NCBI GenBank assembly: GCA_028554795.2
Contig: CM068828.1
Span: 5,487,720 to 5,551,719 of the forward strand
DNA from: Sinohyriopsis cumingii
Taxonomy: Eukaryota > Mollusca > Bivalvia > Unionida > Unionidae
DNA: 64,000 nt
Direction of reading: 5' to 3'
Shown here: positions 16,261 through 40,517 of the stretch, piece after piece
Position numbering within the stretch: the stretch's first letter is position 1
Layout of the letters: every line of letters begins with the position of its first letter
Translations under genes and position numbers: made by a program
Notes under the pieces: model-generated
Databases searched by the model: none
Seen by the model: the letters and a program-made list of their open reading frames with translations, nothing else
What the model was told of the DNA's origin: nothing

Positions 16261-16639
16261 AGTAGTAAATGGGGATACCCTAGCGACAACGGGAATTAGC
16301 ATTACAAACACCCCTGGGACAATCTGGCGACAAGGGAAAATTAACATGGAGAAAAATCGTGGGACAATCTGGCGACAAGGGAAATTAACATGGGAATAAA
16401 TCGTGGGTCACTCTAGCGACAAGGGGAATTTAACATGGAACTATAGTGTGGGTCTGTCTAGCGACAAGGGGAAATTAACATGGGAATAGAGTTTGGGTTT
16501 GTCTAGGGACAAGGGGAATTGAATATGGGATTTTTTTTAAAATTTAAATTTAAATTTAAATTTAAAAAAAGGGGTAGGCAATGGAAAGGCTATCTCTTTT
16601 CGAGAAATATGGCTGGCCCTGAAAAGGGCCTTTGGGTTT
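16261..16639 (+). repeat. Element 1 left terminal inverted repeat
   Basis: It matches 33,300-33,679 inverted with only a few substitutions and A-run indels. It begins AGTAGTAAATGGGG and contains five direct subrepeats of about 42-45 bp (a GGCGACAAGGGAAATTAACATG-like core, varying slightly), then a palindromic (AAATTT)n tract near 16,540-16,567. Near its inner end it carries a GGCCCT...AGGGCC hairpin. In the family the repeats serve as replication origins and integrase substrates. The internal subrepeats may be binding sites. Confidence 0.95.
16615..16630 (-). terminator. Histone-type 3' stem-loop in left TIR
   Basis: On the minus strand the sequence is GGCCCUUUUCAGGGCC: a 6-bp stem and UUUC loop, preceded by CCCAAA and followed by AGCCA and then CGAAAAGAGAUAG. 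This matches the metazoan histone mRNA 3' stem-loop, its 5' flank and the purine-rich downstream element. It lies 25 nt after the stop codon of the gene at 16,656-17,045. Confidence 0.8.
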
Positions 16640-16655
16640 TCTTCTTCTTCTGCTT

Positions 16656-17045
16656 CTAATTTCTTCTTTTTCTCCACCAAGTTCTTATTTTATCTCCAAC
16701 ACTCTTTCTCTTCTTCTCTTTCTTTTTCTCCTGCTCTTCTTTCTTCTTCTTTTCTTCCTCCTCTTCTTTCTTCCTCTTCTCATTTTCTTCTTCTTTTTCA
16801 ATCTTTTCGTTCCATTTGCTTATTCTTATTCTTTCCTCTTCATCCTCCTTCTCCTCCTTTATCTCTTTCATGACACCACTAATCTTGTCCTTTACCTTTT
16901 TTAAGTTATTAATTTCCATCTTTACACGATGGGGACTATAGGAATAATGGTCTTCAACCAGTCTTATTAACATCTGCTCCATCATTCCTAAGTTGTCTAA
17001 AACGTCTTGTAATGTTTGTATTTTGGCCATTTGGTTAGAAGCCAT
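16656..17045 (-). CDS. Small Glu/Lys-rich coiled-coil protein
   Basis: This is a 129-residue protein from ATG at 17045. Residues 1-60 form a predicted helical head (KIQTLQDVLDNLGMMEQML, then NLKKVKDKI). From about residue 65 there is a long Glu/Lys-rich coiled-coil-like tail ending in a basic, Trp-containing tip (TWWRKRRN). I recognise no family. It is the leftmost gene of element 1, reads towards the element end and ends just before the histone-like hairpin in the inverted repeat. Upstream at 17,108-17,206 are two copies of the shared promoter block. The positional equivalent in element 2 (39,453-40,040) has the same architecture but a different sequence. Confidence 0.7.
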   Translation of the reverse strand: MASNQMAKIQTLQDVLDNLGMMEQMLIRLVEDHYSYSPHRVKMEINNLKKVKDKISGVMKEIKEEKEDEEERIRISKWNEKIEKEEENEKRKKEEEEEKKKKEEQEKKKEKKRKSVGDKIRTWWRKRRN

Positions 17046-17084
17046 CTTCTTTTTTTATTCTTTGCAGAATGGTTTGAACGACGA

Positions 17085-17206
17085 ATACTGTGGGTTCTTA
17101 TACTTAAAGCGCGTACGTGAAGGAAAACATCCCCCTAAAACGTAAAATTGATCTTACCTAGATCATGACCAAACAACGCGCGAACGTGAAGGAAAACATC
17201 CCCCTA
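17085..17206 (-). promoter_or_regulatory. Shared promoter block (two copies)
   Basis: On the minus strand a TTTTCCTTCACGTACGCGC block (17,108-17,135) is followed by GTATAAG, a TATA-like box about 50 nt before the start codon. A second copy lies at 17,175-17,206. The same block precedes the genes starting at 18,457 and 19,316 and three genes in element 2. Confidence 0.65.
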
Positions 17207-17215
17207 CTTTTTCAT

Positions 17216-17930
17216 TTCATATAATAAAACCCAAACTATACTTTCTCATTTCATATAATAAAAACCCAAACTATACTCTCCACATACGCTAAGAAACAAT
17301 AAACAAAATCCATAATCTACTATCCACACAATCTTACGTGAGCGGTTACAAAACCCAAACTATACTCTCCACATACGCTAAGAACAATAAACAAATCCAT
17401 AATCTACTATTCACACAATCGTACGTGAGCGGGTACAAACACAAACACACAAACACAAACACACAAACACATACGCTAAGAAACAATAAACAAATCCATA
17501 ATCTACTATCCACACAATCGTACGTGAGCGGTTACAAAACCCGAACTATACTCTCCACATACGCTAAGAACAATAAACTAATCCATAATCTACTATTCAC
17601 ACAATCGTACGTGAGCGGGTACAAACACAAACACACAAACACAAACACACAAACACAAACACACAAACACATACGCTAAGAAACAATAAACAAATCCATA
17701 ATCTACTATCCACACAATCGTACGTGAGCGGTTACAAAACCCAAACTATACTCTCCACATACGCTAAGAACAATAAACTAATCCATAATCTACTATCCAC
17801 ACAATCGTACGTGAGCGCTTACAGAACCCTAACTATACTCTTCACCTACGCTAAGAAACAATAAAGAAACCCATAATCTACTATTCCCACAAACATACCT
17901 TAGCTCTTACAAGCACCAACACACAAACAC
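17216..17930. repeat. Complex minisatellite in left arm
   Basis: Units of about 60-120 bp mix ACGCTAAGAAACAATAAAC, CCATAATCTACTATCCACAC and CGTACGTGAGCGGTTAC with runs of CAAACACA. Several units are nearly identical. Open frames through it are repeat translations, not genes. A shorter, degenerate version lies at 40,200-40,400 in element 2. Confidence 0.85.
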
Positions 17931-18033
17931 ATACCCTCACACTATCTTAAAAAAGAGTTAGTGTTTATAATCACACTACTCTACCTACACACATTGGCAA
18001 ATCGATCGTTATTTCTTTTCTAGAGTATTGGGT

Positions 18034-18049
18034 AGCCCTGAAAAGGGCT
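18034..18049 (-). terminator. Histone-type 3' stem-loop
   Basis: The minus-strand sequence is AGCCCUUUUCAGGGCU followed exactly by ACCCA and then, about 10 nt later, AGAAAAGAAAUAAC. It lies 30 nt past the stop codon at 18,080. The outer base pair is A-U rather than G-C; the second G-C pair, loop and flank fit the histone signal. The conserved block continues to about 17,960. Confidence 0.8.
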
Positions 18050-18079
18050 GGGTTTTTTTGGAACTTCATGGACACCTGG

Positions 18080-18457
18080 TTAATGGTGGCACCTTCCAGG
18101 CCTGGCGCCACATACACATCTTGTCCCCCAGTTACTTTTTACCTTTCTGGGGGAGAGAGCAGAGGCAGGATATGTCGCTTCAGAATCCCAATTTTCGCTC
18201 TCTGGGATTCTGAAATTTCTTCTTCTTCTCTCCTTTTCCTCCTCCTCCTCTTCTTTGTATCTTCTCTCCTCCTCTTTGTATCTTCTTTCCTCTTCTTCTT
18301 TATATCTTCTCTCCTCCTCTTCTTTGTTTCTTCTTTCCTCCTCCTCTCTTATCCTTCCCTCCTCCACAATGGCTTCCGCGGCCAGTTCATTTAATATGCG
18401 CCTGGCATATTCCAGATGCACATGAAGTTCCAACAGTTTCTCCAGTCTCGTGTTCAT
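18080..18457 (-). CDS. Small Glu/Arg-repeat protein with Cys/His tail
   Basis: This is 125 residues from ATG at 18457. Residues 1-32 form a helical head with LELHVHLEYARRILNELAAE. Residues 33-80 carry four to five repeats of about 8-9 residues like EEEERRYK, a likely single long helix. The end has CVCGARPGRCHH, four Cys/His-type ligands that might bind metal. No family is recognised. Element 2 has a homologue (40,518-40,826) that conserves head and tail but has lost the repeats, so the repeat tract is free to vary. It carries the shared promoter block upstream and the histone-like hairpin downstream. Confidence 0.75.
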   Translation of the reverse strand: MNTRLEKLLELHVHLEYARRILNELAAEAIVEEGRIREEEERRNKEEEERRYKEEEERRYKEEERRYKEEEEEEKERRRRNFRIPESENWDSEATYPASALSPRKVKSNWGTRCVCGARPGRCHH

Positions 18458-18507
18458 TTTTGGTGTTGATCAATCAACAAGGGTAGCTGGACTGCCGAAC
18501 GAGTTTC

Positions 18508-18548
18508 AATTTATAGTGAAAGCGCGGACGTGAAGGAAAACATCCCCT
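18508..18548 (-). promoter_or_regulatory. Shared promoter block
   Basis: On the minus strand TTTTCCTTCACGTCCGCGC is followed by TTTCACTATAAATTG, a good TATA box about 50 nt before the start at 18457. A partial second copy (CGCGCGGACC on the plus strand) lies near 18,593. 18,600-18,850 is AT-rich with CAAACACA runs and no gene. Confidence 0.65.
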
Positions 18549-18910
18549 AAAAACATAAAATTGATCTTACCTACATCATGACCAAAAAATAACAACGCGC
18601 GGACCTAAAAGAAACACTCACTCACTTTTTATGCTACCCATCACTATTTTAAAATTTTTTATAAATCACTTCAATAGACTATCCACATACGCAAAGCAAT
18701 CCAATCTAACCCCAAATTTACACCTCAAACACCAAAAAAAAAGACATCATTTTAATCTACTATCCATACCAACTTACTTAACCACTTACAAACACAAACA
18801 CACAAACACATACCCTCTCACTATCAATAAAGAGTTAGTGTTTATTTTCACACTACTCTACCTACACACATTGGCAAATCGATTGTTATTTCTTTTCTAG
18901 AGTATTGGGT

Positions 18911-18926
18911 AGCCCTGAAAAGGGCT
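18911..18926 (-). terminator. Histone-type 3' stem-loop
   Basis: The minus-strand AGCCCUUUUCAGGGCU is followed by ACCCA and CUAGAAAAGAAAUAAC, 30 nt past the stop at 18,957. About 70 bp around it are nearly identical to the hairpin region at 18,034, showing duplication of a 3'-end cassette. Confidence 0.8.
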
Positions 18927-18956
18927 GTTTTTTTTTTGTTTGCTATGGCATTCTTT

Positions 18957-19316
18957 TTAGTTTCTAAGAATGCGATGTCCTCTGAGGATAGACTTTCTGG
19001 CGATAGGTCTGCTTCTTCGGAAAGAGAAGAAGAACTCTTTGGTGTCGATACGACAATCGACAAAGCCTCTGTCAGCTTCAGGTTCCTGCTGCTGTTGTTG
19101 TTGTTGCTGCTGTTGCTGCTGTCTCTGAAGTCTGTACTTCTCTGTCCATTCTTGTTTTTCCCTGTTCATTTCTTCTCTGAAGAGCTCTTCTATCAGGTCT
19201 TCAGTAATTTTTAACATTCTCACATTCTCTATTTCTTCTGGCTTCGGTATCAGACTGTGTCTGACCCTATGCAAATTCACGTAGGCTTCGTTGAGTTTAG
19301 CTAGTTTGGAGCACAT
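18957..19316 (-). CDS. Small poly-Gln helical protein
   Basis: This is 119 residues from the first ATG at 19316 (MCSKLAKLNEAYVNLHRVR). The helical head is followed by a second helix with EDLIEELFREEMNREKQEW, then a Gln run of about 12, and a basic C-terminus with FFFSFRRSRPIARKS. It is unrecognised. The element 2 homologue is interrupted by a LINE (45,314-47,470). It is transcribed from a shared promoter block at 19,381 and ends in a histone-like hairpin. The Gln run is coded by mixed CAG/CAA codons, so it is not a pure triplet repeat. Confidence 0.7.
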   Translation of the reverse strand: MCSKLAKLNEAYVNLHRVRHSLIPKPEEIENVRMLKITEDLIEELFREEMNREKQEWTEKYRLQRQQQQQQQQQQQQEPEADRGFVDCRIDTKEFFFSFRRSRPIARKSILRGHRILRN

Positions 19317-19373
19317 CTTCTTAGGAGAATGAGTCGACAATGGATAGTTAGACTGGAAACAACCCGGTTCTTA

Positions 19374-19408
19374 AAGTCAAAGCGCGGACGTGAAGGAAAA
19401 CATCCCCC
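19374..19408 (-). promoter_or_regulatory. Shared promoter block
   Basis: The minus-strand TTTTCCTTCACGTCCGCGC block is followed by CTTTGACTTTAAG in place of a clean TATA box, about 60 nt before the start at 19316. Confidence 0.6.
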
Positions 19409-19499
19409 ACACGGTTTTTGAGTCGCAACGTTTAGTGAGTGTCATGAGAGGGATAGTAAGAAATGAAAGAGCATCAATCCAACATTCTTATAGCTAAAC

Positions 19500-19695
19500 A
19501 AAAGACAAAGGCATTTTTTTCAAAACACAACATTTTTTATTCAAAAATCACCTAACACTAAACAACAACTCTAACATTTTTAACAATAATCCAACAATAT
19601 AACATCAAACAATTTTTTCAAAACACAACATTTTTTATTCAAAAAACACTTAACACTAAACAACAACTCTAACATTTTTTAACAACAATGCAACA
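19500..19695 (-). terminator. Poly(A) signals of the structural gene block and deletion scar
   Basis: Two near-identical AT-rich blocks each contain TTTATT on the plus strand (AATAAA on the minus strand) near 19,533 and 19,635. They lie downstream of the capsid gene. Compared with element 2 (48,030-49,190), about 1 kb holding the protease gene and most of its neighbour is missing, with the junction near 19,692-19,698. Confidence 0.6.
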
Positions 19696-19739
19696 CTAAA
19701 AGTTTCTCCACTAGGTAAAGAGGGATAACCGTCTTCCAT
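19696..19739 (-). pseudogene. 5' stub of deleted gene (homologue of 48,733-49,215)
   Basis: From an ATG at 19739 about 14 codons (MEDGYPSLPSGETL) match the start of the 160-residue element 2 protein. Then the sequence jumps to unrelated AT-rich DNA. It shows that element 1 once had this gene and the protease gene beyond it. Confidence 0.8.
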
Positions 19740-19744
19740 GGTTT

Positions 19745-21058
19745 CTAGTAATCTAGGATGACTTCTCTCAAACTGTTGATTTCTATGGTATTATCGAATT
19801 CTGCATACAGGATGACGTTCACCGTTTCATCAGGGTCTCGGTCTTTAAACTGAATTTCCACACGAATCTGGCCGGATTTTATAGGGTGGAAATGTCCCTC
19901 GTCGCTGCCTTGGTCTGGAGTGAAATCGAAAGCCCACAAAGCGTAGCCTCCTGCATAATCCTCGTACGTAATACCGTGACTGGTATTGGTTCCTAACTCT
20001 CCGGTGGCTTCGTACAAGGACAAGTACGATCTCAAGTAATTCTTCTTTTTAAAGTCAGGTTCGAAAGGTCGGGTACACAAGGTCTTGCCATCGCGACTGA
20101 CTTCGATTTTGGACACGCCAAAGTGTTGAAAGTAGAAAGGATTTTTTTCGGCAGCTCCGTTGAAGGCTGTATTCTCGACGATACCAACGATCAAACGTTT
20201 GGGTAACTGTCCTTGGAACAGATGATCTTCGATCATGGATCGCTGTCCCTTGGGAATGGTGAAGATTTTCACTTCCACGCGTCGTATGGGATACTTGGCG
20301 GTCGTTCTGCTCAACGTTTGACTGATGTCGTTTCCCACTTTAGGTAACACTTCCACACGGCGTACGTAGAGTCTGGCTTCTAGGATTTTGGTTTTGTAAC
20401 CGTCACTATCAGCCATCAAATGGAAAGCGGCACTGCTACGATTCAGTCTCAGGCGGACATCCACCCCGTTCAGCAAATACTTTTCTTGCAACCACATGTC
20501 CAAATGCAAACGATCCATCAGTTCTAAACTTGTGTCGGCTCCCGTGATTCTCTTTCTTCGTTCTACAAATCCATCATTGTTGTCTTTCTTTTCATCAGTT
20601 TCCAATATTTCAAACTTGGTAGGTTCGTCAGCTTCCCATACCACACAGGCATTGAGATGAGTGTTCTTGGCATCTATTCCGTACGTCAAGAGATTTTCCA
20701 GGTAGGCACGATAAGGGTAAGTATCCATGCTGCTACTGACCAGATTGTTATTCAAATACAAGTCCACTCCACTGAACAAGGAATGCATGAAATTGTTGAC
20801 GGGAGCTACTGCTTCATCGTCTATAGCACCTCCAGTCTTATCTAGAATTTTGACTTTCAGGTACAAGTAACTGCTATTCAGATCGATGTAATCTTCGGGC
20901 TGTCCTTTGATTTCAAACTCGATGGGAGCGGAATCGGTCAGTGAGGAGACGGGGTGAAATTCCACCCACTGGGATTCTTCCATCGTCATCATCGTGGGGG
21001 GCATGGCAAACAGATCCAGTTCCGTCTTGGAACAAGCGCAAGATTCTCGGTGCATCAT
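19745..21058 (-). CDS. Major capsid protein, double jelly-roll type
   Basis: An intact 437-residue protein starts at ATG 21058. Landmarks are WVEFHPVSSL (31-40), LYLKVKILD (65-73), PVNNFMHSLFSGVDLYLNN (86-104), YPYRAYLENLL (114-124), and MDRLHLDMWLQEKYLLNGV (181-199) followed by an RLRLNRS strand. This is the invertebrate family often labelled 'F54H12.2-like', interpreted as the Polinton/adintovirus hexon that forms the T-number lattice of the virion. It is shorter than canonical Polinton capsid proteins and very diverged from the element 0 capsid. It is the last gene of the block transcribed from the ATPase side and is followed by poly(A) signals. The function is inferred from family knowledge and gene order. 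Confidence 0.75.
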   Translation of the reverse strand: MMHRESCACSKTELDLFAMPPTMMTMEESQWVEFHPVSSLTDSAPIEFEIKGQPEDYIDLNSSYLYLKVKILDKTGGAIDDEAVAPVNNFMHSLFSGVDLYLNNNLVSSSMDTYPYRAYLENLLTYGIDAKNTHLNACVVWEADEPTKFEILETDEKKDNNDGFVERRKRITGADTSLELMDRLHLDMWLQEKYLLNGVDVRLRLNRSSAAFHLMADSDGYKTKILEARLYVRRVEVLPKVGNDISQTLSRTTAKYPIRRVEVKIFTIPKGQRSMIEDHLFQGQLPKRLIVGIVENTAFNGAAEKNPFYFQHFGVSKIEVSRDGKTLCTRPFEPDFKKKNYLRSYLSLYEATGELGTNTSHGITYEDYAGGYALWAFDFTPDQGSDEGHFHPIKSGQIRVEIQFKDRDPDETVNVILYAEFDNTIEINSLREVILDY

Positions 21059-21074
21059 TTTTTTGTCTCTTTTC

Positions 21075-21491
21075 TCAATAATCGAAAACGTCTAAGTCTC
21101 GAACGGTTCTTCTTTTCTTGGCCTTTCTCGCTTGAAGTCTGGTGAAAGGGTGTTTTCTTCGTCGTCTCTTTCTGCCTTGTCCTTGCTGAATGCCTGACTC
21201 GGTAGTGTGCAGGGCATTTATAGGTGTTTCTCGTTGGCCTAAAATGTCTTTGCCCGTTTGCAGCAAGACATTTTTGCCTGCCCTCATGAAGGCTTCTTTA
21301 GGATTTTGTTTGTCGATGATGACATTTTGGAGAAATTCTTTGCCTTGCGTCAGTGCCGCATCTTTCAAGGCGTGCAATCCGCGTGTCACCATCGGTTTCA
21401 ACACCGGGGCCACCGAACGAAAGGCCGATTTTAACATATCTCCTAAGCCGTGTCCTCGCTGTCGAGCAACCCCTCGGTACACTGGATACAT
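21075..21491 (-). CDS. Small basic virion protein, pVI/pX-like
   Basis: 138 residues from ATG at 21491. A Gly-containing amphipathic region (GHGLGDMLKSAFRSVAPVLK, residues 14-33) is followed by a helical middle and a strongly basic tail (GRKRRRRKH, then RKAKKRR) that could act as a nuclear localisation or DNA-binding signal. Layout and position between capsid and penton genes resemble membrane-lytic or core proteins of adenoviruses and adintoviruses. There is no direct family match I can prove. 16 nt separate it from the capsid start. The element 2 copy (50,505-50,886) is truncated. Confidence 0.55.
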   Translation of the reverse strand: MYPVYRGVARQRGHGLGDMLKSAFRSVAPVLKPMVTRGLHALKDAALTQGKEFLQNVIIDKQNPKEAFMRAGKNVLLQTGKDILGQRETPINALHTTESGIQQGQGRKRRRRKHPFTRLQARKAKKRRTVRDLDVFDY

Positions 21492-21494
21492 GAC

Positions 21495-22418
21495 TTAAGA
21501 GTCGTGAGAGAACCGTTTTCGAAAATGGAGTTTCACCGTGACTTTTCCTTTGATGAATGGAATATTTTGTCCCAGATCTCCTTTTATAGCAATGTTGACC
21601 GTGTCCAAATACGACTTACTGACAGGCAAATAGTGAGGATGGACAAATTCGCGGTGGACGTGGTAAGTGTTTCCACCTTCCTCGTCAGTGTTCGTGGCAG
21701 AATCCACTTTGAAAGGAATGACACGCAGTAACGGTACGGAGGTGTGTCCCACCACGTTGTACTCCACCACATCGGAATACACGAACATCAAATTCAGTCC
21801 TTGGTTCAGTTCTACCGGGGCACGAAATAACTTGCTAAAAGACTCGTTGTCGTAAACGATGGGTAATTCGTTTTTCTTGATCATGGTCTTTCTCATGTCC
21901 ATGTCTCCGCCCAACATGTCAAACAATTCAGGACAAAATAAAATGGACAGGATTTTACTCCGTTCAAATTTCATCAAGAAGCGACGAGCTGCTTTGTGGT
22001 ACTCCATGGTGACATTTTTGTTGACATGCTCCAAAGCTTTCAGAAACACGACATTAAACCTGGAGGTTATGGTGCTGACCAAATGTTGACCACTAAAATA
22101 ATAGCCTGGGGGAATGAACAAGTGATAGGTGGTGTACTTTTGTGTACGGGTTTTCTTGTCATATTTGACATTGCTATCCATCCACTGTTGCATTTGCTCG
22201 TCATGAACTTCCACATCAAAAAAATTTTGATTGGGAAGGACATTGAGGACTTGGGTCGGGTGAATCATTTCTACTAAAGCCACTTCCCAATGGGCTTCGT
22301 GATCTAACTGGATGGCTTGAGGTAATTTGGCCGTGTAACAGCACAACGTGTTCTTGGGAAACACCTCCATGGAACTGTCACTGGGTAAGGTTAAGTAAAA
22401 TTGGTTTTGGTGACTCAT
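21495..22418 (-). CDS. Minor capsid (penton-like) protein
   Basis: 307 residues from ATG at 22418. The N-terminus FYLTLPSDSSMEVFPKNTLCCYTAKLP, with HWEVALVEMIHP soon after, is the typical opening of Polinton/adintovirus penton-family proteins. So is the later PPGYYFSGQHLVSTI (108-122). The C-terminal half is rich in beta strands, including YLDTVNIAIKGDLGQNIPF. It would form five-fold vertices as a single jelly-roll. Its start overlaps the stop of the upstream membrane protein by ATGA, indicating tight packing. The gene is missing from element 2 through a large deletion. Confidence 0.65.
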   Translation of the reverse strand: MSHQNQFYLTLPSDSSMEVFPKNTLCCYTAKLPQAIQLDHEAHWEVALVEMIHPTQVLNVLPNQNFFDVEVHDEQMQQWMDSNVKYDKKTRTQKYTTYHLFIPPGYYFSGQHLVSTITSRFNVVFLKALEHVNKNVTMEYHKAARRFLMKFERSKILSILFCPELFDMLGGDMDMRKTMIKKNELPIVYDNESFSKLFRAPVELNQGLNLMFVYSDVVEYNVVGHTSVPLLRVIPFKVDSATNTDEEGGNTYHVHREFVHPHYLPVSKSYLDTVNIAIKGDLGQNIPFIKGKVTVKLHFRKRFSHDS

Positions 22419-22831
22419 AATTCCAGAGTTCTGTGGCTGTCCGAGGGGTTACTGGACGTCAGAGGCGTGTCTCCGTCTAAAATGGGGTTCTGGTTGTGAT
22501 TGAAGTGGTGACTGGCACTGGCACTGGACACAAGGTTCCCGGGGTTCCCGTTCGAGGTGAATTTCAGGGAGGGATTAGGAAGCAGGTAACCGATGAAACT
22601 GCTCAATAAAATGGTCCACAATTGTTTGTCTCCTTGTTGCAAACTCAAATTGGCGATGGCTGCCCCGATGACACAATACACCACGAAGATTTGGCAGAAA
22701 AAGACGATTTGCGTTTTAGGCACACGTTCTCCACACCACACCCACAAGGGTTGTTTTTGTAAATCTTGCACAGAAGAACTAGGTGAAGGAGGAGTGGTCG
22801 ACGTAGCTGCGTCTGCTGTGTGAAAGGGCAT
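22415..22831 (-). CDS. Small two-helix membrane protein
   Basis: The first in-frame ATG at 22831 gives 138 residues. After a Ser/Thr/Pro-rich N-terminus there is VPKTQIVFFCQIFVVYCVIGAAI, a clear membrane helix, then LWTILLSSFIGYLLPNP, a second one, then a polar tail. The pair of motifs (IVFFCQI and LLSS-x-GYLLPNP) recurs in Polintons, adintoviruses and adomaviruses as a small membrane protein of unknown role. The TATAAAAAG of its upstream region lies inside the last codons of integrase. It is deleted from element 2. Confidence 0.7.
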   Translation of the reverse strand: MPFHTADAATSTTPPSPSSSVQDLQKQPLWVWCGERVPKTQIVFFCQIFVVYCVIGAAIANLSLQQGDKQLWTILLSSFIGYLLPNPSLKFTSNGNPGNLVSSASASHHFNHNQNPILDGDTPLTSSNPSDSHRTLEL

Positions 22832-22836
22832 GATGG

Positions 22837-23946
22837 TCACTTCTTTTTATAGTCGATGACTTGCGAAGCGTCGATCCAAGAATCAAAACTGGGTGGAAAT
22901 CCTTTCCAACGTACTTTGACTTCTTTGACACGTCGTTTGCCCACTTTACGGGTTCTGCGTTCGAGAATGCTTTCGATGTCGTACACGTCGTCTTCTATTT
23001 TGGTGACATGTTGTAACTCGGGCAAATAAAACGTTCCTTTGAGCACTTCTCCGTTCATGTCTTCCAATTTATAGACGGCAGGATGACGGCCATGCACTCG
23101 TCCAGTGACGCGAAACAATTCGGTGGTCCAGTTAGGTAAGTAACCTTTGTCGAAAGTGCGTTTGGTTTTGCCAATGCGCACCCAATCTCCTACGGCCAAC
23201 TCTCCACTTTTCTTGGGGACAGCCCTCGTCGGGGACGTACCAAACAGGCGCTCAAACACCAACACTTCGTTGTCGGGAGTCACGTCTTGCGGGGCACGTC
23301 CGATGCTTCGATGGTAAGATGGGTTGTACGCTTGCACCAGGTGCGGTAAGATGTCGATGTACTTCAGAGTGTGGTGATGCGTAAAATATTTCCACATGCG
23401 TTCTTTCAAAGTGCGTTGAAAACGTTCCACGATGCTGGCTTTGGTTTCGGGATTCTCGGTGGTAAAAAAATGAATGTCACGTTTCTTTAATTCTTTTTGG
23501 AAAGCTTGGTTCAGAAATTCGGTGCCTTTGTCCGTTTGCCATCGAAGAGGGTGACGACCGCTTTGTTTCAACACCCGTTGCAGGGCTCGCACTAACTCGC
23601 TGCTCGATTTGGAAGTCAAGGGTACGACCCAAGCAAATTTGGAAAAGACGTCGATGACACAAAACAAATATTTGTAGCCACGATTGTAGCTGGCCAAATG
23701 AGAGACATCGGCTAAATCGGCTTGCCATTGATGATCGATGCCTTCCACTCGGGTGCGACTTCTGGCAAACTTGCGTCGAATGGGTTTGTGTAAAGTGTAG
23801 GTGGCTTGTTCTTGTAACCATCGTTGCATTTGAGGTAAACGGAGACTTTTCAGTCGCGTTTTGGCAGCACGATACAATTTTTGAACTCCTGCGTAACCTG
23901 CAGGATGGGAGGGATCGTAGTAAATGCTGGCTAAGACTTTTTCCAT
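22837..23946 (-). CDS. Retroviral-type integrase with chromodomain
   Basis: ATG at 23946 gives 369 residues; the open frame continues upstream without a better start. Element 2 uses the same start (51,490). An HTH-like N-terminus (DPSHPAGYAGVQKLYRAAK) precedes the rve core, with catalytic Asp in WQADLADV, Asp in WQTDKGTEF and Glu in VERFQR, so the DDE triad is complete. A C-terminal SH3-like part (VGDWVRIGKTKRTFDKGY) is followed by a chromodomain (DVYDIESILERR, then VKVRWKGFPPSFDSWI). It inserts the element and makes the 6-bp duplication. The chromodomain may direct it to particular chromatin. This is one of the intact genes of element 1. Confidence 0.92.
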   Translation of the reverse strand: MEKVLASIYYDPSHPAGYAGVQKLYRAAKTRLKSLRLPQMQRWLQEQATYTLHKPIRRKFARSRTRVEGIDHQWQADLADVSHLASYNRGYKYLFCVIDVFSKFAWVVPLTSKSSSELVRALQRVLKQSGRHPLRWQTDKGTEFLNQAFQKELKKRDIHFFTTENPETKASIVERFQRTLKERMWKYFTHHHTLKYIDILPHLVQAYNPSYHRSIGRAPQDVTPDNEVLVFERLFGTSPTRAVPKKSGELAVGDWVRIGKTKRTFDKGYLPNWTTELFRVTGRVHGRHPAVYKLEDMNGEVLKGTFYLPELQHVTKIEDDVYDIESILERRTRKVGKRRVKEVKVRWKGFPPSFDSWIDASQVIDYKKK

Positions 23947-23968
23947 TTTTTTTGTGTTGGTTGGTGTG

Positions 23969-24616: not shown

Positions 24617-25053
24617 GGGGTTGTCAGGGGTCGATTCTGAGATCTTGGGACTTCCGAGGGCCTTTTTATCTTGCTCCCACCAGTCCTCCCAACATTGGTT
24701 CCCAAGACTCCTTTCAGTATGGGGCCTAACAAGAGAGGTAAAATACCTCCACGTTGCACTAACATCTTCTTTTTTTGACGAATGGGAATTTTCTTTTGAA
24801 CCATTTGGCGAAGAACGTGACGATGTTTGCCTAAGCATTGTTTCTGGTGTTTGGACAAAGGGATCGTGCCTTTCAAAACGTTCAAACAACATTCGCACAC
24901 GGTATCGATGACCTCTTTGGAGGCTGTTTGAATGAGTTTTTCTCGTAGGGGTGGAGAAGCTTTGGACAGGACAGATAGCATGTCCCCATGTTTGGCTAAA
25001 CGTGGTGGCAGTCCTTTCCTTTTCTTTCCTTGGGGTTTTCTGGAGGGTGACAT
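24598..25053 (-). pseudogene. Conserved small core-like protein, frameshifted near its end
   Basis: From ATG at 25053 (MSPSRKPQGKKRKGLP) a basic start leads into ASKEVIDTVCECCLNVLKG, IPLSKHQKQCL and KKKMLVQRGGILPLLLGPIL. This is a short protein very widespread in invertebrate Polintons (I-x-ECxxNVLxG, IPLxxxQK, QKGG-x-LPxLL). Near 24,695 there is one extra base compared with element 2, so the last residues are replaced by an out-of-frame tail that runs into the next gene. It may still work because only the C-terminal Gly-rich end is lost. The role is probably virion or core; not proven. Confidence 0.7.
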
Positions 25054-25111
25054 CTTTGAGTCTTCAGGAGCACCAAAAAACACTGATACCCGACATGGTC
25101 ACAGGCCTTTT

Positions 25112-26032: not shown

Positions 26033-26087
26033 GTTCGCACTGTGAGTGAGACAGACGAAAAAGGGTCTGAGGTTTTTATAGATTTTT

Positions 26088-26831
26088 TTATAGGGAGTGA
26101 AATGAAGTCGAGGACGGAGACGTGTACAGGACAGGCCCTGCGTCTTGGCACCAGTGGTGAAACAAGTGGGTATGAAATCGCAAATCCTCGGGAGTCGTAG
26201 GTTTCAAATCGACGAGTAAATAGGCGTGTGGAGTTTGAGTGGCATCGTCGTACGCCTGAGTCAACCAAGGCGTTCCTAACTGTTTGGCTAAGACTTGCAC
26301 TTGCGATTTATCTCGAGGGCTTTTAAACAAGACCACGTAATGCGCATTGAGACTGATGGTGCGATGGGCTTTACTTTGTTGAAACAAATTTTGGGTGATG
26401 TAAACGACACTGGCATTACGGTGATGCCCTTTGCGCGTGAACCACAGTTTAATTTCTTCTTCGTCTTCTCCTAACATGTCGTCGAAAATGACCAAATGGG
26501 TTAGACGGGAGTCAGAGACGATGCCATCGTCGTTTTTAGGAATGCCTTCCACAAACACGATGGAATCGCCTTGACTTTCTCGCAAGAGGCTGTACGCCGA
26601 TTGCCACTCTTTGTAACACCACACGATTCGTTGAGGGGGTCGATCGATCAAATGATGTTTATGTTCGATCAAACGTTTGACGAATTCGGTTTTGCCTGAA
26701 CCGCTAGGTCCAGCAATGAGCATGTTAAAGGGATGGCGAAGATACAAAGCCTCCCAACTGGCACGATCTAAGTGTTCGTCGATGACTTTGACAGTAGAGG
26801 AAGAGGGAGCAGAGACAGCAGAGGTAGCCAT
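26088..26831 (-). CDS. Genome-packaging ATPase (FtsK/HerA, A32-like)
   Basis: ATG at 26831 (MATSAVSAPSSS) gives 247 residues. Walker A is GPSGSGKTEF (41-50), Walker B is LVIFDD (113-118), and a sensor-like VVYITQNLF lies at 142-150. These match the HerA/FtsK packaging ATPases shared by Polintons, adintoviruses and large DNA viruses. The enzyme pumps DNA into the capsid. A TATATAAAC box lies about 45 nt upstream at 26,880. The gene is intact here, while the element 2 copy has a nonsense change after residue 180. Confidence 0.9.
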   Translation of the reverse strand: MATSAVSAPSSSTVKVIDEHLDRASWEALYLRHPFNMLIAGPSGSGKTEFVKRLIEHKHHLIDRPPQRIVWCYKEWQSAYSLLRESQGDSIVFVEGIPKNDDGIVSDSRLTHLVIFDDMLGEDEEEIKLWFTRKGHHRNASVVYITQNLFQQSKAHRTISLNAHYVVLFKSPRDKSQVQVLAKQLGTPWLTQAYDDATQTPHAYLLVDLKPTTPEDLRFHTHLFHHWCQDAGPVLYTSPSSTSFHSL

Positions 26832-26895
26832 GGTGTGAGATATGTCACTTGTGACACGAAAAACAAACAAGACAAGAGTTTATATACTTTTTCAG

Positions 26896-26920
26896 AACAC
26901 GTTTATTGAATTTTTTTTCA
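26896..26920 (-). terminator. Poly(A) signal downstream of PolB region
   Basis: GTTTATTGAA on the plus strand gives TTCAATAAAC on the minus strand, after the PolB/accessory block and just before the ATPase promoter. The same sequence is kept in element 2 at about 54,448. Confidence 0.5.
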
Positions 26921-27054
26921 AACATGAATACGAAAGACAAAAATACATAAAAGCCAAAGGCTTAAGTACAAGAATAAAAGGCACATGATAACCATGAACG
27001 TGGAATAAACACAAGTGTCTGTACAACATGTTTTGGGTAAAGTTCTAACCAGTT

Positions 27055-27324
27055 CTATAGTAGGGGTAAGGTCACACAAGTGTCCTCCCGAAAGGGTCTT
27101 TCAGGCCTGTCCACGACAGTCCTGTCCTGGGTGACGGGTTCTTCTGGCACCGTCACTAACACGGGTTGAAAAGTAACTTTTTTCCTTGAATAACTCTCGT
27201 GCATACTGGGCCACATCTTGTGTCCAAGCCTCAAAACCCTGGTCTCGGTGATGTCCAACATTTGACTCCTAACCAATCTGGTTTCTTCTTCGTCAACGAC
27301 ATGGTAAGTTACTTCAATGAACAA
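27055..27324 (-). pseudogene. Fused remnants of two deleted accessory genes
   Basis: The open frame here is a deletion junction. 27,060-27,232 matches element 2 54,600-54,782 (end of the gene at 54,644-55,183), and 27,233-27,305 matches 56,232-56,305 (start of the third F-box-like gene, MSL-start at 56,292). About 1.45 kb is missing between them. A second junction near 27,325 removes the BIR gene. The 89-codon frame is therefore probably accidental, although its tail (KKVTFQPVL, then PVTQDRTVV) is conserved in element 2. Confidence 0.75.
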
Positions 27325-27354
27325 TGAACTATCGATCTTGCCTAGGGTTCCTTT

Positions 27355-30300
27355 TTATATACAGACCAATACCGACGTGTCCATAAGGTAAGGTGAAGTG
27401 ATTGGGAAGTCGCACTCGTTCTGGTATACAATTTGATAGACTTTTTCCAAGGGTCGACTGACGATGTGGTGAGTGGGTAAACGTACAATCTTGTTCGGTT
27501 GATAGGTGGTCACTTTAAAGTTTCCATCCTCTCCCGATTGCAAGGCTTCTTTCAATACCCCAAAGTTGACCACTCGACTGGTACGATGATTCAGAGTCAG
27601 TCCTTTCACTTTGCACGTCGTGTGCACTTCTCCTTGTTTGTCCCGGTATTCGTAGCCGTAATTTTTGGGACCACCACTGACGAAACTTAGAATCTTGTCG
27701 TCGGGATGCTCGTCTGTCCAGGCTCCTAAACGGTCTCCTTCGATGTCAGGGTGCTGTTGACTCGGGTGATGGATGTAAATGCAACTGTCCGTGTCAAAGT
27801 ACAGGACGCGTTCTTCTAACAGTTCTAAAGCTTCGTACAATTTTAAGCGAGCATGAGCTGTCACGTAAGCCGCAATGATGACATTTCCAAAAGGGTCGTC
27901 TTGTACAAAGTCCAAATCTTCTTCGTAATTGACCAAGATCAAATCCTCTCGAACGACGTCCACGTGTTTCATGTATTTGGTTTTGTCGTGAATCATCTGG
28001 AAGTAGCGGGAAGGTTGTGTCAAATATTCCGTCTTGGGTAAACACGGTCGTTGTGCCATTTTACCCCACAAGCAATTTAACATCGCTTTGGCAAACGATC
28101 GCCTGCCTTCGTTTTTTTTCGATGTGGTCTAAAGAGATGCCTTCTTGTGCGTAGTATTTCTCTTTGAATTGTATTTGGTCTTCGGGAGTGTGACACCAGG
28201 AAGGATAGCCGCTGGCTTCTTGTTTCAGTTTCAAAAAGGCATCCACGTAGTCGGCGAAAATGCCTTTCTGAGTAGGGTCACCCTTGTGGTATTGTTGTGT
28301 CTTGGGAAAGTGGAAAATTTCGTACACTTCTAACAGTTGGTATCCCATGTCCAGAGCTTTGAACAATTCCACGCTGACCCAGGTTCCCGTCAAGGCACGT
28401 TCTTCCTGGCTGTGATGGCAAGGTTGGTCCTGGTTGCACGTTTCGGCACAAGTACGGCACAAGGGAAACATCAGTTTGCCTTGACAATGGTGAGGTAAGA
28501 CGGGATGGTATAGGTTCGTGGGAGGCAAAACTTTACACTTGATCAAGCCTTCGTATTGTCGAATGTTTTTCAGGTCGATGTGTTCCGTGAACAATTGCGG
28601 GTGCCCTACAGGAAGGGATACAGCGAACACACGTCCAAGTATTTGATTTCTTCTCATTTCTCTTCGTCGCCTTGGTACAGCAAACAGGTGGCATTGGTCC
28701 TTCCTCCGTACAAACTATCCCTCGGGTTCAGCGGGTCTATGAACTGGTAACTTTCCACGAGGCGTTTAAACTCGGGATCGGTTTTCAAACGGTGATCGTA
28801 CTCGTGTTCCCACATTTCCACCACTTGGTATCCTTGCTGTTCTAACTTTAGGCGTCGCTGACAAGTGTCCTGGTACAAGTATTCCATGGTTCGTTGCAAA
28901 AACAGATTTTTGGTGTCACGGTCAGGGTAACAGATGGGACATCCGTGAAATAAGCAACCGTTAAACTCGTACACGATCTTGGGGTTTTCTAAGTCCCAGC
29001 CATCTACCGAATACGTTCCGATGGTCTTTTCGCCTCCTCCGTTGCGGGCATGCTGAATCCATTTGTCTTCCTTGTCGCACAAGGAATGTGACCAACGTAG
29101 GGCTTTGACCGAGTATTGACGCTTGACATAGTGGGTCGTTTGAGGACTGATGACAGCCACGGTGTTTTCAGGCATGAATCGTTGGCGGTACACTAAGGAA
29201 CACGCTTTGGCAATGGTGCAAACTTCTTTCAAAGGATCGACCCCTCCGTGTTCCATGAACAGTTCTCGAAATTTTCCACAGCAACGTCGTAAAATGTCCA
29301 CGTCGGAACGACAATACTTTAACATTTCTTCCTGAAAGTCGAAGGGGTCAGAGGCATGAGCCTGGTACCAAGCGTAGAAAGCTTCTCGTTGTTCGGTACG
29401 CATGTTGTCGGGGTCGTAATAGTGAGCCTCAGGTAAATGGGGTAGAACGGCATGTTGATTGGCTTCCGTATTGAAAAAGTGTGGAAAGTACCCTTTAGCC
29501 ATTTCTGTCATTCCAAACGTTTTAGGCATTCGACTCAAAGGCATAGCCAAGTAACTCATCGAATCTTTAAACTGTACTTGTCCCACTTGCATGAAAATGA
29601 TTTTGGCTCCGTTCAAAGTCACTTTAGGACGCTCGGTGCCTTGTTCCGTATAGTATCTGAGAAGAAACTGTCCATCGTATCCGGAGAAATTGTGAGCCAT
29701 CACCGTGGCATGACGATGAGAATCTCCGTAACGTTCGATGTCCTCTTGGCTCCACGTCTTGTCGATGGGGTCTAAGACCCATTGGGCAAAATCGGCTAAC
29801 GTGTTTGGTCCTCGAAAGATTTTTTCACGTCCTCCAGGAATCTTGCTGCAGTGAGGGCAATGACTGAAGATAGGTTCTTGAATGCACTTCTCGCACGCTC
29901 GATGAGCCACGCAGAAATTAGGAATGTGAATGCCGGTCTCTTGCATGCATTCGAAATCGAAAAAGATGAAATTGCCTTTCTTCTTGTGACCGTCCTCTTC
30001 CTCTGGTGGGGGTTGGTATTTTTGCACGTAACATTGGTGTTCCAAGTCCACGATGTGGTGACAAATGTGACATTTTTTCTTTCCTCGACATACGTGTGCC
30101 TTGGTACTATTGGTACGTATGCCTTGTCCACACGTAGGGCACAATCTCAGGAGTTGACAAGCACATTTCTTCTGTGAACCTTGTGTTTTCAAATGTTGCT
30201 GGTAACAGGTAGGGCTGACAAACGTGCGCAGACAAGTTGAACAAGGCACTGGTTCTTCGCTCAGACAGGGTGGAGAGGCCAAACATCCTGGGCATTTCCA

Positions 30301-31371
30301 TCCACAAGACTTGTGTTGCTCTCGATTGTTATAACCATAATCACATTTCTCACAATAATAACCGTATCCCAGGAATCCAGTGATACTGGTAATGGTATCG
30401 AAATGTTCATCGTGATAATAGACATGAATGTATTTTCCGTCCTTAAAATCTTGGCCTCGAAACAACAGAGTTCCACGCATTTCTTGAGGGTGCACTTTCA
30501 AGGTGTAGCGTGGAGCTAGGGCATCTTGCAATTTTTGCATCTCAGGAATGCCACAAGGTGTGTCTTTGGACAGTCCGGCTTGTTGTAACAGGAGTTCTGC
30601 TTCATTTCGTTGTTTGGCTCGATCGGATCGTTGAATAGTTTTCCAGGTTCTTTTCCATTCTACCGTGTCGTTCTTGTTGGCATAGGTTCGTCCCACCACG
30701 ATGGCACGGGCTAAACACATCTGGTCTTGAGGGTTGTGAATTTGGACGAGACTTGTTTTGGTGTTGCGAAGGTTGTCCACCAATAACATCTTTTTGCGTC
30801 CTGTCCCTTGAGGAAGAGAGACGTGGGCCATTTTCAGTGTGGCTTTACCATCGGTGATGTCAAACTGGTCATTAGATTGTTGTACGTGTTGAATCTTGTC
30901 CATGATTTTGGAAGGGGTTAGTTCTGCGGGTCTGCTAAACTCGATCCAAACAGGGGATTTCAAACCGTCGTGATCTATGGATAGTGTCAAGCGATCGTCT
31001 TCTTTGGGTTGACATTGTCGCTTGAGTGCGGTGAGCAAAGAATCCCACATCTCGGTGATAAACCCTTCTGCTTTCTCCAAGGGTACGTCGGCCTTGAAAT
31101 CTTTAAACTTCACCGTGTAGGTGTAAGCCGTGGTTCTAAATTTTCTAGAGGAGCGCTTTTCCGTCTCTCGAATGGAATAGTACTTTTCAGGGTTGACTAA
31201 GGGTGGTGAACTTGGTTTAGAGGGTTCGGATTCTGGTTCACTCATGTCCTCTTCAAAATCACTGGCATGAATTTGTGCCAAGATTTCAGCCCTGGTACGA
31301 GGCGATAGATCACGTTTCTGCCTCTTACTTTCTTCTTCTTCTTTCTTCTCGAATGAATAGGATCGTTTCAT
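27355..31371 (-). pseudogene. Protein-primed DNA polymerase B, broken
   Basis: ATG at 31371 opens a 905-codon frame. It has a disordered start, a Cys-rich zinc-finger region (340-448), exonuclease motifs FDFEC (471-475), NFSGYDGQF (561-569) and YCRSDVDIL (686-694), and the palm-insert landmark DPLNPRDSLYGGRTNA (879-894). An in-frame TGA at about 28,654-28,656 follows. Motif A (DVCSLYP) is still readable just after it, but the next residues are missing in a small frame-shifting deletion near 28,612. The following frame (to 28,061) holds YEGLIKCKVLPP. An eight-A run near 28,110 shifts frame again before motif B (MLNCLWGK) and motif C (YFDTDS). Three independent breaks mean no full polymerase. 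A further shift near the C-terminus is possible. The family replicates Polinton DNA. Confidence 0.9.
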
Positions 31372-31504
31372 CTTGAGTGCAAAACGTCAAATGACTCAAG
31401 TTCAAACACCATAGACTAATTTATAGTCATGGCAAACCAGCGTATATAAAAAGGGTGTGTCTTGTCCTTTCACTATTCATTTCACTCTCAAACCGAGGAG
31501 AACG
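31372..31504. promoter_or_regulatory. Divergent promoter between PolB and CCHC gene
   Basis: On the plus strand TATATAAAAAGG (31,443-31,454) lies about 60 nt before the ATG at 31505. On the minus strand GACTATAAATTAG (about 31,418-31,430) lies about 50 nt before the PolB start. A paired arrangement of two TATA boxes within 30 bp suggests joint control of both genes. Confidence 0.6.
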
Positions 31505-31989
31505 ATGGAAGAGACTAACCAAATCGAACGTTTCGTCAGAGCTTTGCGAGGGGTCATTAGAAAATTCTCTTCAGACCAGCCGACAGACTACTCTCCTTCC
31601 TTTCGAGATAAGAGTCAGGATACTTGCTATATCTGTCAGAGGAAAGGGCATTGGTCTTCAGAGTGTCCAGACCGTCAAAAAAGAAAAAAAAAACAGGGGC
31701 TAAAAAAGACAAAAGTCAAGATACCTGTTATTATTGTAAAGAAAAAGGACATTGGTCTCCAGATTGCCCAAAAAAGAAACAAGAGGAGTCAGAAGAAAAG
31801 AAGGATTCTTCAGAAGAAGAGAGGGATTCTTCGGAAGAAGAGAGGAATTCTTCGAAAGAAGAGAGGGATTCTTCAGAGGAAGAAAGAAGACAATTCTATT
31901 TAAAAGAAGCAAAGAAACAGGAGAAGAAAAGAAGAAGGGAAGAAAATGAGGAAAAAACGGTGAAGAAATTCAAAAAACAGAGAGACTAA
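31505..31989 (+). pseudogene. Two-CCHC zinc-knuckle protein, frameshifted in A-run
   Basis: ATG at 31505 (MEETNQIERFVRALRGVIRK) leads to a first zinc knuckle, CYICQRKGHWSSEC. In the next 30 nt is a run with AAAAAAG and ten A's. Beyond it the second knuckle, CYYCKEKGHWSPDC, and a long Ser/Glu/Lys repeat tail (DSSEEERDSSEEER type) are in another frame, stopping at 31989. The knuckle spacing C-x2-C-x4-H-x4-C is that of retroviral nucleocapsid and other RNA or ssDNA-binding proteins. The break may be a mutation, an assembly error in a homopolymer, or a real frameshift site. No histone-like hairpin follows. 31,990-32,230 shows no gene. Confidence 0.65.
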
Positions 31990-32232
31990 ACAAGGAGAAA
32001 GAAGAAGTCAATGAACTTTTAATTAAAGTGTTGTGTTGTGAATTGGATTGTAAAAAATGGATAAAAGAATACATGAATGATATAAGGTAAGTGTCTTTGA
32101 GTTTTGATTTTAAAATAAGAAGCTACACTCACGCACTCATACACAGACACGTACTATAAGGGTAAAATGGGTGGGGTTTATTTTTGAGTTATTGGCAAAT
32201 TGAAATTGTATTTCTTTTCGAGAAATGTGGGT

Positions 32233-32248
32233 GGCCCTGAAAAGGGCC
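32233..32248 (-). terminator. Histone-type 3' stem-loop
   Basis: The minus-strand GGCCCUUUUCAGGGCC is followed exactly by ACCCA, then UCGAAAAGAAAUAC, 25 nt past the stop at 32,274. This is the best match in the window to the full histone signal. Confidence 0.85.
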
Positions 32249-32273
32249 TTTTTATTTTGGTGTAGGGGTGAGT

Positions 32274-32834
32274 TTAACCAATCAACTTTAACTGCCTTAA
32301 GCCTTTGCCACGGCCAAGGCCTACTTCTGATGATTGGGTTGAAATCACTAAGGGTGGTACGACAGGCTTAGTCACAGGGTTGGCGTGTTTAGCTCGAGAA
32401 GGTCGTATTCTCTTCGGTCGTGATAAAGAAGTCTGATACATTTGTTTCAGACTTCTTAACTCCGCTAAAATGTCCAACAGTACCGTAGCCGTTTGATTTT
32501 CACCCTCTTGTTTCTTTGCTGCTACTTCTTCTTGCTGTTGTTGCTGTTGTTTTTTTCTTACCTCTTCTTGTTGCTGTTGCTGTTGCTGTAGGAGAAAAGC
32601 TTGTTCCGCTTCCTTTTGTCGTTGCATAAATTTCTCCAATTCTTCTTTCTGTCTCTGTCTAAATTTCTCCACTTGCGGTAATGAAGAAGGTAACGAAGGT
32701 TCCGGAACAAATTCTTGCGAGGTAAGAAAATCCACAAAATCCCAATGTACCTCTTCTGAAAGTAAGTCCGGGTTCCCTTGGGCAGTCTCCCCTGCTGGTG
32801 TACCCCAATGGATCGTTTTCTGAGTTTCCGTCAT
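32274..32834 (-). CDS. Poly-Gln coiled-coil protein
   Basis: 186 residues from ATG at 32834. An N-terminal polar part (MTETQKTIHWGTPAGE) is followed by a Gln/Glu coiled coil with two Gln runs (about residues 82-90 and 96-102). A conserved helix TVLLDILAELRSLKQMY comes next, then a basic tail rich in Pro and Arg (SRPKRIRPSRAKH). No family is recognised. Part of the same gene appears inverted at 57,990-58,320. It shares the histone-like 3' end with the left-arm genes but not their promoter block; instead it has a divergent promoter with a CRE/E-box. Confidence 0.7.
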   Translation of the reverse strand: MTETQKTIHWGTPAGETAQGNPDLLSEEVHWDFVDFLTSQEFVPEPSLPSSLPQVEKFRQRQKEELEKFMQRQKEAEQAFLLQQQQQQQEEVRKKQQQQQQEEVAAKKQEGENQTATVLLDILAELRSLKQMYQTSLSRPKRIRPSRAKHANPVTKPVVPPLVISTQSSEVGLGRGKGLRQLKLIG

Positions 32835-33053
32835 GTTGAATCACTGTCGCATAGATTGACTGCACACAAGCGCTAACGAATCTATATAGACCACGTGACG
32901 TCACAGACTGCTCTCTTCGGATTGGATGCCGGCTGACTGAATTTTGTAACGCGTGTTCGGATTGGTGAATGAATTCAATCCGTTTCAATCCTTCCTGTAC
33001 CTATAAATAAGCGCAGTTCACTGCATTGATTCACCTATTCTCGTCGCTTCAAG
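32835..33053. promoter_or_regulatory. Divergent promoter with overlapping E-box and CRE
   Basis: CACGTG (32,892-32,897) overlaps TGACGTCA (32,896-32,903), both perfect palindromes. Next to them, TCTATATAGA (32,881-32,890) can serve the minus-strand gene. CTATAAATAAG (33,001-33,011) lies about 45 nt before the plus-strand ATG at 33054. E-box and CRE motifs bind host bHLH and bZIP factors. Confidence 0.6.
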
Positions 33054-33284
33054 ATGTGGACCACAGTTGGGTCATCCACCCTTGTGTCTTCCATGATGTT
33101 TAGGACGGACATGCTCATGTATGTCAGGTCCAAGTGGACTGTTGTTGATAGGACAGATACTAGTCAATGGATGAGGAGAGTTTACATAGAAAGACAAGGA
33201 TGTCTCAAGAGGGTACTTGTGTATGGACCGGCAGTTAGAAGGAGTTTAAGAAGAAGAAGATGTGACAGATGCCATCTATGTTAA
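33054..33284 (+). CDS. Small basic protein at the right end
   Basis: 76 residues from ATG at 33054, with a hydrophobic and Thr/Ser-rich N-terminus, WTVVDRTDTSQWMRRVY in the middle and a basic Cys-containing end (RRSLRRRRCDRCHLC). It is unrecognised. It reads outward into the right inverted repeat and stops 24 nt before the hairpin there, mirroring the leftmost gene. A TATA box lies at the right distance upstream. Confidence 0.6.
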   Translation: MWTTVGSSTLVSSMMFRTDMLMYVRSKWTVVDRTDTSQWMRRVYIERQGCLKRVLVYGPAVRRSLRRRRCDRCHLC

Positions 33285-33299
33285 TATTAATATTAACAT

Positions 33300-33679
33300 A
33301 AACCCAAAGGCCCTTTTCAGGGCCAGCCATATTTCTCGAAAAGAGATAGCCTTTCCATTGCCTACCCCTTTTTTTAAATTTAAATTTAAATTTAAATTTA
33401 AAAAAAAAATCCCATATTCAATTCCCCTTGTCCCTAGACAAACCCAAACTCTATTCCCATGTTAATTTCCCCTTGTCGCTAGACAGACCCACACTATAGT
33501 TCCATGTTAAATTCCCCTTGTCGCTAGAGTGACCCACGATTTATTCCCATGTTAATTTCCCTTGTCGCCAGATTGTCCCACGATTTTTCTCCATGTTAAT
33601 TTTCCCTTGTCGCCAGATTGTCCTAGGGGTGTTTGTAATGCTAATTCCCATTGTCGCTAGGGTATCCCCATTTACTACT
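33300..33679 (-). repeat. Element 1 right terminal inverted repeat
   Basis: It is the inverted match to 16,261-16,639, with an identical hairpin, (AAATTT)n tract and five subrepeats and only scattered substitutions. It ends TACTACT, followed at once by the target duplication. Confidence 0.95.
33309..33324 (+). terminator. Histone-type 3' stem-loop in right TIR
   Basis: The plus-strand sequence is CCCAAA, then GGCCCTTTTCAGGGCC, AGCCA and CGAAAAGAGATAG. It serves the plus-strand gene that ends at 33,284. Being inside the inverted repeat, it is the same cassette used at the left end on the other strand. Confidence 0.8.
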
Positions 33680-40500: not shown

Positions 40501-40517
40501 ACTCCAATGACACCTGG

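Follow-up and report, generated by a model that had tools for sequence, protein, structure and literature searches.

Why should small genes of a virus-like mobile element end in the hairpin that, among animal mRNAs, is textbook-specific to those of histones? The question is raised by a stretch of 64,000 nucleotides (nt) from the bivalve Sinohyriopsis cumingii (contig CM068828.1 of assembly GCA_028554795.2, positions 5,487,720 to 5,551,719), hereafter the window, which contains a Polinton (element 1) and a second element (element 2). An earlier note, made from the letters of the window alone, had pointed to histone-type 3' ends on five genes of element 1. The analysis reported here favors, at a probability of roughly 0.83, the reading that this high-copy Polinton has built five small non-histone genes in the manner of replication-dependent histone genes, with transcripts that would be produced in S phase and processed through SLBP and the U7 small nuclear ribonucleoprotein (snRNP). 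Genes are designated below by their lower coordinate.

Hairpins at the 3' ends of five small genes

Histone mRNA 3' ends form, according to PMC1924863 and PMC2781718, through binding of SLBP to the hairpin and pairing of U7 snRNP with an element downstream, with cleavage of the transcript between the two. All five hairpins that the earlier note had described in element 1 were found exactly where it had placed them, with the stem, the TTTC loop, the adjacent ACCCA or AGCCA and the GAAAAGA block as described (Table 1). Each lies on the sense strand, 25, 30, 30, 25 and 24 nt after the stop codons of genes 16656, 18080, 18957, 32274 and 33054, respectively. The purine block had been placed about 15 nt further on; the block itself is present, and its spacing needs correction, to 13 nt after the hairpin and 8 nt after ANCCA.

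With those of element 2, the window holds eight exact hairpins, against a mean of 0.07 in shuffled sequence even when up to two mismatches are allowed. The identification as histone-type ends was confirmed by the Rfam covariance model Histone3 (RF00032), which matches all eight hairpins at E values of 2e-9 to 1e-3, five of them above the gathering threshold, and no other Rfam family reaches gathering in the window. The cleavage-site sequence is ACCCA after six of the eight hairpins and AGCCA after two, and the purine block is GAAAAGA at seven and AAAAACA at the one at 58330. The first stem pair occurs in two versions, G-C and A-U, found in 16 and 11, respectively, of the 27 distinct rows of the stem alignment. 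Over all 34 rows of this alignment, including five host histone genes, 98.8% of the pair cells are paired versus 94.2% upon column shuffling; two of the six pairs are changed on both sides, and 43 of 500 shuffles attained this count, which comes from related rows. Reading the hairpin as a bacterial-type terminator was rejected, because the matches to sbrA fall below gathering and lie on the other strand. The 3' end of the capsid gene is of a contrasting type, in which AATAAA occurs at +106 and +204 from the stop codon.

It is highly improbable that the hairpin serves another DNA or RNA step, such as packaging, the start of replication or recombination of the inverted repeats. Two hairpins do lie at the inner ends of the inverted repeats, as would suit such a role, but those of element 1 are always in sense orientation, 24-30 nt after a stop codon, are accompanied by ANCCA, the purine block and, in three genes, histone promoter motifs, and have a loop and flanks that fit RF00032.

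Hairpin copies across the host genome

The genome searched comprises 2,904,868,851 bases in 1,138 contigs, with the window at C5:5487720-5551719. It contains 56,197 exact hairpins (27,794 + 28,403) and no occurrence of the reversed pattern, which is a soft control because it contains two CG, with about 5 occurrences expected by uniform bases. At five hairpins per element, element equivalents would number of the order of 11,000.

Retention of the hairpin was assessed in two samples. The first was chosen by hairpins and consists of 20 stretches of contig C1 plus the window, in which the sites were located by sequence outside the signal; the hairpin is kept at 20 of 21 A-type sites (16 exact), at all 22 sites in the repeats (21 exact) and at 9 of 9 sites of the 32233 type. 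Because these stretches had been picked by the hairpins themselves, 20 additional copies were picked by protein alone from 150 listed. All 20 carry the hairpin, 19 exactly and one with a G-U pair, followed by ACCCA in 16 and AGCCA in 4, so that the persistence of the hairpin in other copies, on which the earlier note had staked its claim, holds. Across these 20 copies and the window, variation was seen at 1 of the 23 sites of the hairpin and purine block, in 1 of 483 cells, and at 16 of 67 flanking sites, in 36 of 1,407 cells; the site-level comparison gives p = 0.06. Neither group includes the five nt that follow the hairpin, of which one varies, in 4 of 105 cells.

A copy number far above that of the host histone genes listed (at least 150 matches to PF00125) would also suit a decoy, whereby some 56,000 hairpins, if transcribed, absorb SLBP or U7 snRNP and disturb the histone supply, either to the benefit of the element or as a side effect. 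Such an effect is very unlikely to be the explanation, for it does not account for the placement of the hairpins after five genes or for the histone promoter motifs.

Histone genes of the host and promoter motifs

The host histone genes, located by a PF00125 profile search of the genome in which 150 matches were scored as a lower bound on their number, form tandem units of about 8.3 kb. One such unit (L074:462-6688) encodes, in a single orientation, five histones identified by their proteins, namely the core histones that we take to be H3, H4, H2B and H2A, together with H1. Among the 120 hits listed for this H1, all the named animals are molluscs (mussels, oysters, a chiton, snails and an abalone). 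All five genes match RF00032 above gathering, the distance from stop codon to hairpin being 28, 27, 34, 35 and 38 nt (H3, H4, H2B, H2A and H1, respectively), and all five have a purine block of the same kind. The H2B hairpin, GGCCCTTTTCAGGGCC, is identical to that of the element; the other host hairpins have the loop TTTT (H3, H4), the loop TTTA (H2A) or a T-A pair in the stem (H1). The sequence CTAGAAAAGA is common to host H3, H4, H2B and H1 and to the A-type ends of the element.

The resemblance extends to the promoters. The 24-nt motif GATGTTTTCCWTCACGTCCGCGCT, present exactly at host H2B and with one mismatch at H1, occurs eight times in the window at up to three mismatches, versus 0.00 expected, and all eight occurrences are upstream of hairpin genes or of their copies in element 2. 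A 21-nt motif from the promoter of host H4 recurs exactly at 18594 and 44950, and its third match in the window, with three mismatches, overlaps the 24-nt motif. When upstream sequences were compared by local alignment with first-order shuffles (200 each), genes 16656, 18080 and 18957 matched the host H2B and H1 promoters, and 18080 also that of H4, with 0 of 200 shuffles as good; beyond the motifs, the flanks showed no resemblance to host genes by the same test. Six other genes of the element (31505, polymerase, capsid, integrase, ATPase and 25112) gave no comparable promoter score, the lowest p over 30 comparisons being 0.03 (31505 with H2B). Three of the five hairpin genes thus have histone promoter motifs as well as hairpins, which suggests that the element rebuilt histone-type cassettes around non-histone genes.

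Genome-wide, a version of the promoter motif occurs 6,356 times (control, 0). The 20 hairpin-chosen stretches yielded 34 motif matches, distributed over 10 of them and arranged as motif, then gene, then hairpin; as expected, the promoter motif is absent from nine right-end stretches. The 24-nt and 21-nt motifs, which came to light through being common to element and host, are candidate histone-gene control elements of molluscs. The divergent promoter of genes 32274 and 33054 (32835-33053) has CCAAT-type and TATA boxes and no histone motif; a shared histone promoter for this pair was rejected, as no alignment beat the shuffles.

Hairpin-gene proteins and the identity of the element

Among the five hairpin-gene proteins, Pfam detects no histone family at E 0.1. 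For protein 32274, public data contain 20 homologues, mostly from contigs shorter than 2 kb; its predicted structure is a single long helix with loose ends, with a mean predicted local distance difference test (pLDDT) score of 70. In one homologue (P0134, 61% identical), the stop is absent and the protein reads on into ...SGPPTSLEKR..., which is the frame translation of the hairpin and purine block and suggests that the signal persists in a diverged relative.

Element 1 is a Polinton. Its inverted repeats comprise arms of 314 nt at 96% identity and an inner 109 nt at 99%, and Pfam identifies a family B DNA polymerase of the protein-primed type (PF03175, E 3e-16), an rve integrase (PF00665, E 2e-14) with a chromodomain (E 6e-7) and an A32-like packaging ATPase (PF04665, E 1e-7, exceeding the family cut-off). 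The structure model of the capsid protein (pLDDT 84.9) matches capsid chains of iridovirus, PBCV-1, Sputnik and mavirus at E values of 1e-16 to 1e-13 in structure comparison. The polymerase region is split over three overlapping reading frames, so this copy may be defective. A zinc-knuckle gene (31505-31903, plus strand), divergent from the polymerase, has no hairpin.

Proposed mechanism and its weighing

If the hairpin genes are controlled as their sequences suggest, host polymerase II would transcribe them alongside the histone genes in S phase; SLBP would bind the hairpin, U7 snRNP would pair with GAAAAGA, and the histone cleavage complex would cut after ANCCA to release mRNAs that lack poly(A). 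These mRNAs would be translated during DNA replication and destroyed afterwards, so that the five small accessory proteins, probably early or regulatory, would be present only in cells engaged in DNA synthesis, a phase in which the element itself can also replicate. The capsid gene would use ordinary 3' ends.

Several observations weigh against this reading. The promoter motif is missing upstream of genes 32274 and 33054, with no alignment better than shuffles, and one of the hairpin-chosen stretches (L042) has a hairpin and no promoter motif. The five nt after the host hairpins (ACACA, ACAAA, ATACA, ACACA and ACTTT for H3, H4, H2B, H2A and H1) differ from the ACCCA/AGCCA of the element, so its ends are not plain copies of the genes of this host. 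A pattern search for U7 (purine block plus Sm site) gave 22 places in the genome versus 16 in the reversed control, and none of the 20 that were cut out has a clear U7 hairpin; the U7 model RF00066 had no genome match, a search that is uninformative because the model was silent in its controls too. The change between G-C and A-U in the stem is one old split between gene types, and the copies picked by protein, 98-100% identical at the protein level, are of recent origin, so that constraint on the signal is only suggested. AATAAA occurs at +18 and +92 after the stop of gene 32274 and at +111 after that of 18957, making downstream polyadenylation possible for these genes. Finally, Histone3 has no match at E up to 5 in four Polinton loci of other hosts (L012-L015), not all of which reach the ends of the element. 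These loci come from GTDB contigs in bacterial records (Escarpia and Bathymodiolus symbionts and a Breoghania assembly) and are probably host DNA binned with bacteria; they have matches to the capsid, integrase or ATPase and no tblastn match to the five hairpin proteins. With neither Histone3 nor relatives of the hairpin genes in these loci, the signal appears to belong to accessory genes of one Polinton lineage.

Some of these points are what would be expected if the signals were passive relics, acquired once from histone genes and spread with the element, with mRNAs that really end at downstream poly(A) signals. Two of the five hairpin genes have AATAAA within 111 nt of the stop; such signals are, however, usual after animal histone genes and little used in C. 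elegans, according to PMC1924863, and neither AATAAA nor ATTAAA is found within 400 nt for the other three. Persistence in young copies is weak evidence of function and two of the five hairpins, inside the inverted repeats, are kept alike by other means, but three lie outside the repeats, and both the G-C and the A-U versions of the stem pair. The layout of motif, gene and hairpin in three genes, with flanks beyond the motifs unlike those of host genes, also speaks against relics, and this alternative is unlikely.

Under the preferred reading, of non-histone genes organized as replication-dependent histone genes, the element is probably the first example known of a virus-like mobile element that runs a gene set of its own in this way, with accessory proteins that would follow the S phase of the host and element equivalents on the order of ten thousand in the genome. 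If this is true, the histone 3'-end pathway can be co-opted for cargo other than histones, SLBP and U7 have natural non-histone substrates, and there is an explanation for how a Polinton might coordinate the expression of its genes with DNA replication in the host. Poly(A)-selected RNA-seq would miss such transcripts, and expression of such elements may be underestimated.

Element 2 and other sequence in the window

Element 2 starts at 39046, is interrupted by an insertion of the long interspersed nuclear element (LINE) type and has counterparts of three hairpins of element 1. Its copy of gene 18080 (40380-40560, minus strand) is a natural broken copy that has lost the 5' arm of the hairpin and kept ...CAGGGCTACCCA...GAAAAGA. 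Two copies of a LINE-type reverse transcriptase (42015-44615 and 46367-47722, minus strand), 96% alike over 2.2 kb, sit in element 2 and split its gene of the 18957 type. About 1 kb of element 2 (48130-49175) is absent from element 1, and within this stretch an open reading frame (48146-48706) weakly matches the adenovirus-type protease family PF00770 (E 0.018, below cut-off). A protein with an inhibitor-of-apoptosis (BIR) domain (56304-56939, minus strand) in the element 2 region is a possible accessory gene. A third inverted repeat starts at 63947-63996 (plus strand), which means that a further element sets in at the end of the window. The left flank has no Histone3 match at gathering; it contains a decayed integrase of a different Polinton lineage (5365-6209, minus strand, 32-37% identity), near which protease- and polymerase-like pieces were read by eye.

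Table 1. Coordinates of element 1, its hairpin genes and histone-type signals, and their counterparts in element 2 (aa, amino acids; pI, isoelectric point; bits, RF00032 score)
Feature	Position	Strand	Details
Polinton element 1	16261-33679		between CAAGTT 6-bp target duplications (16255-16260, 33680-33685)
Hairpin gene	16656-17045	-	129 aa, coiled-coil-like, basic (pI 9.3); Pfam matches weak, below cut-off
Hairpin gene	18080-18457	-	125 aa, charged repeats
Hairpin gene	18957-19316	-	119 aa, Q-rich
Hairpin gene	32274-32834	-	186 aa
Hairpin gene	33054-33284	+	76 aa, very basic (pI 11); divergent from 32274; no Pfam match
Major capsid protein gene	19745-21058	-	predicted double-jelly-roll fold; no hairpin 3' end
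Hairpin of 16656-17045	16615-16630	-	inside left inverted repeat; AGCCA; GAAAAGA 16595-16601; 35.6 bits
Hairpin of 18080-18457	18034-18049	-	A-U first pair; ACCCA; GAAAAGA 18014-18020; 27.1 bits, below gathering
Hairpin of 18957-19316	18911-18926	-	A-U first pair; ACCCA; GAAAAGA 18891-18897; 31 bits, below gathering
Hairpin of 32274-32834	32233-32248	-	ACCCA; GAAAAGA 32213-32219; 41.2 bits
Hairpin of 33054-33284	33309-33324	+	inside right inverted repeat; AGCCA; GAAAAGA 33338-33344; 35.6 bits
H2B/H1-type motif	17108-17131	-	62 nt before start of 16656-17045; second copy 17177-17200
H2B/H1-type motif	18521-18544	-	63 nt before start of 18080-18457
H2B/H1-type motif	19381-19404	-	64 nt before start of 18957-19316
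21-nt H4 motif	18594-18614	-	identical to host H4 promoter; upstream of gene 18080
Element 2 hairpin	39478-39493	-	counterpart of 16615; 42.5 bits, best of all eight
Element 2 hairpin	45235-45250	-	counterpart of 18911
Element 2 hairpin	58330-58345	+	counterpart of 32233, in inverted fragment; purine block altered (AAAAACA)
Element 2 24-nt motif	40101-40124	-	24/24 identical to host H2B; others at 40168, 40886, 47885
Element 2 H4 motif	44950-44970		exact

Comparison with known systems

The element is a Polinton for whose gene regulation no precedent was found. We know of no virus or transposon with histone-type gene ends, and no report of such ends in a Polinton was found in the open-licence PMC literature. 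Searches of IMG/VR with the capsid protein, a capsid alignment and the integrase gave no confirmed relative, and a search of a phage collection with the ATPase of the element gave no match; the hairpin pattern hit 11 stretches in IMG/VR, none of which is Histone3 at gathering, and these were taken as noise.

Element 1 shares with Polintons/Mavericks (Polintoviricetes, with the related adintoviruses) the inverted repeats, the 6-bp target duplication, the family B polymerase, the integrase with chromodomain, the A32-like ATPase and the capsid protein, and differs from them in having accessory genes with histone-type 3' ends and promoters. A histone connection in virus-like animal elements is also described, in PMC11071296, for Xeno-class adomaviruses and tailtomaviruses, which carry a histone-like 'Histoid' gene; there the protein itself is histone-like, whereas in element 1 the likeness concerns gene regulation only, and the term 'stem-loop' is absent from the main text of that paper. 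With the replication-dependent histone genes of metazoans, the hairpin genes share a 16-nt hairpin whose stem has 6 bp and whose loop has 4 nt, a downstream purine block and a short distance from the stop codon, as well as the identical H2B hairpin and the 24-nt and 21-nt promoter motifs; they differ in that they encode no histone, are located in a virus-like mobile element and have ACCCA or AGCCA after the hairpin, unlike the genes of this host.

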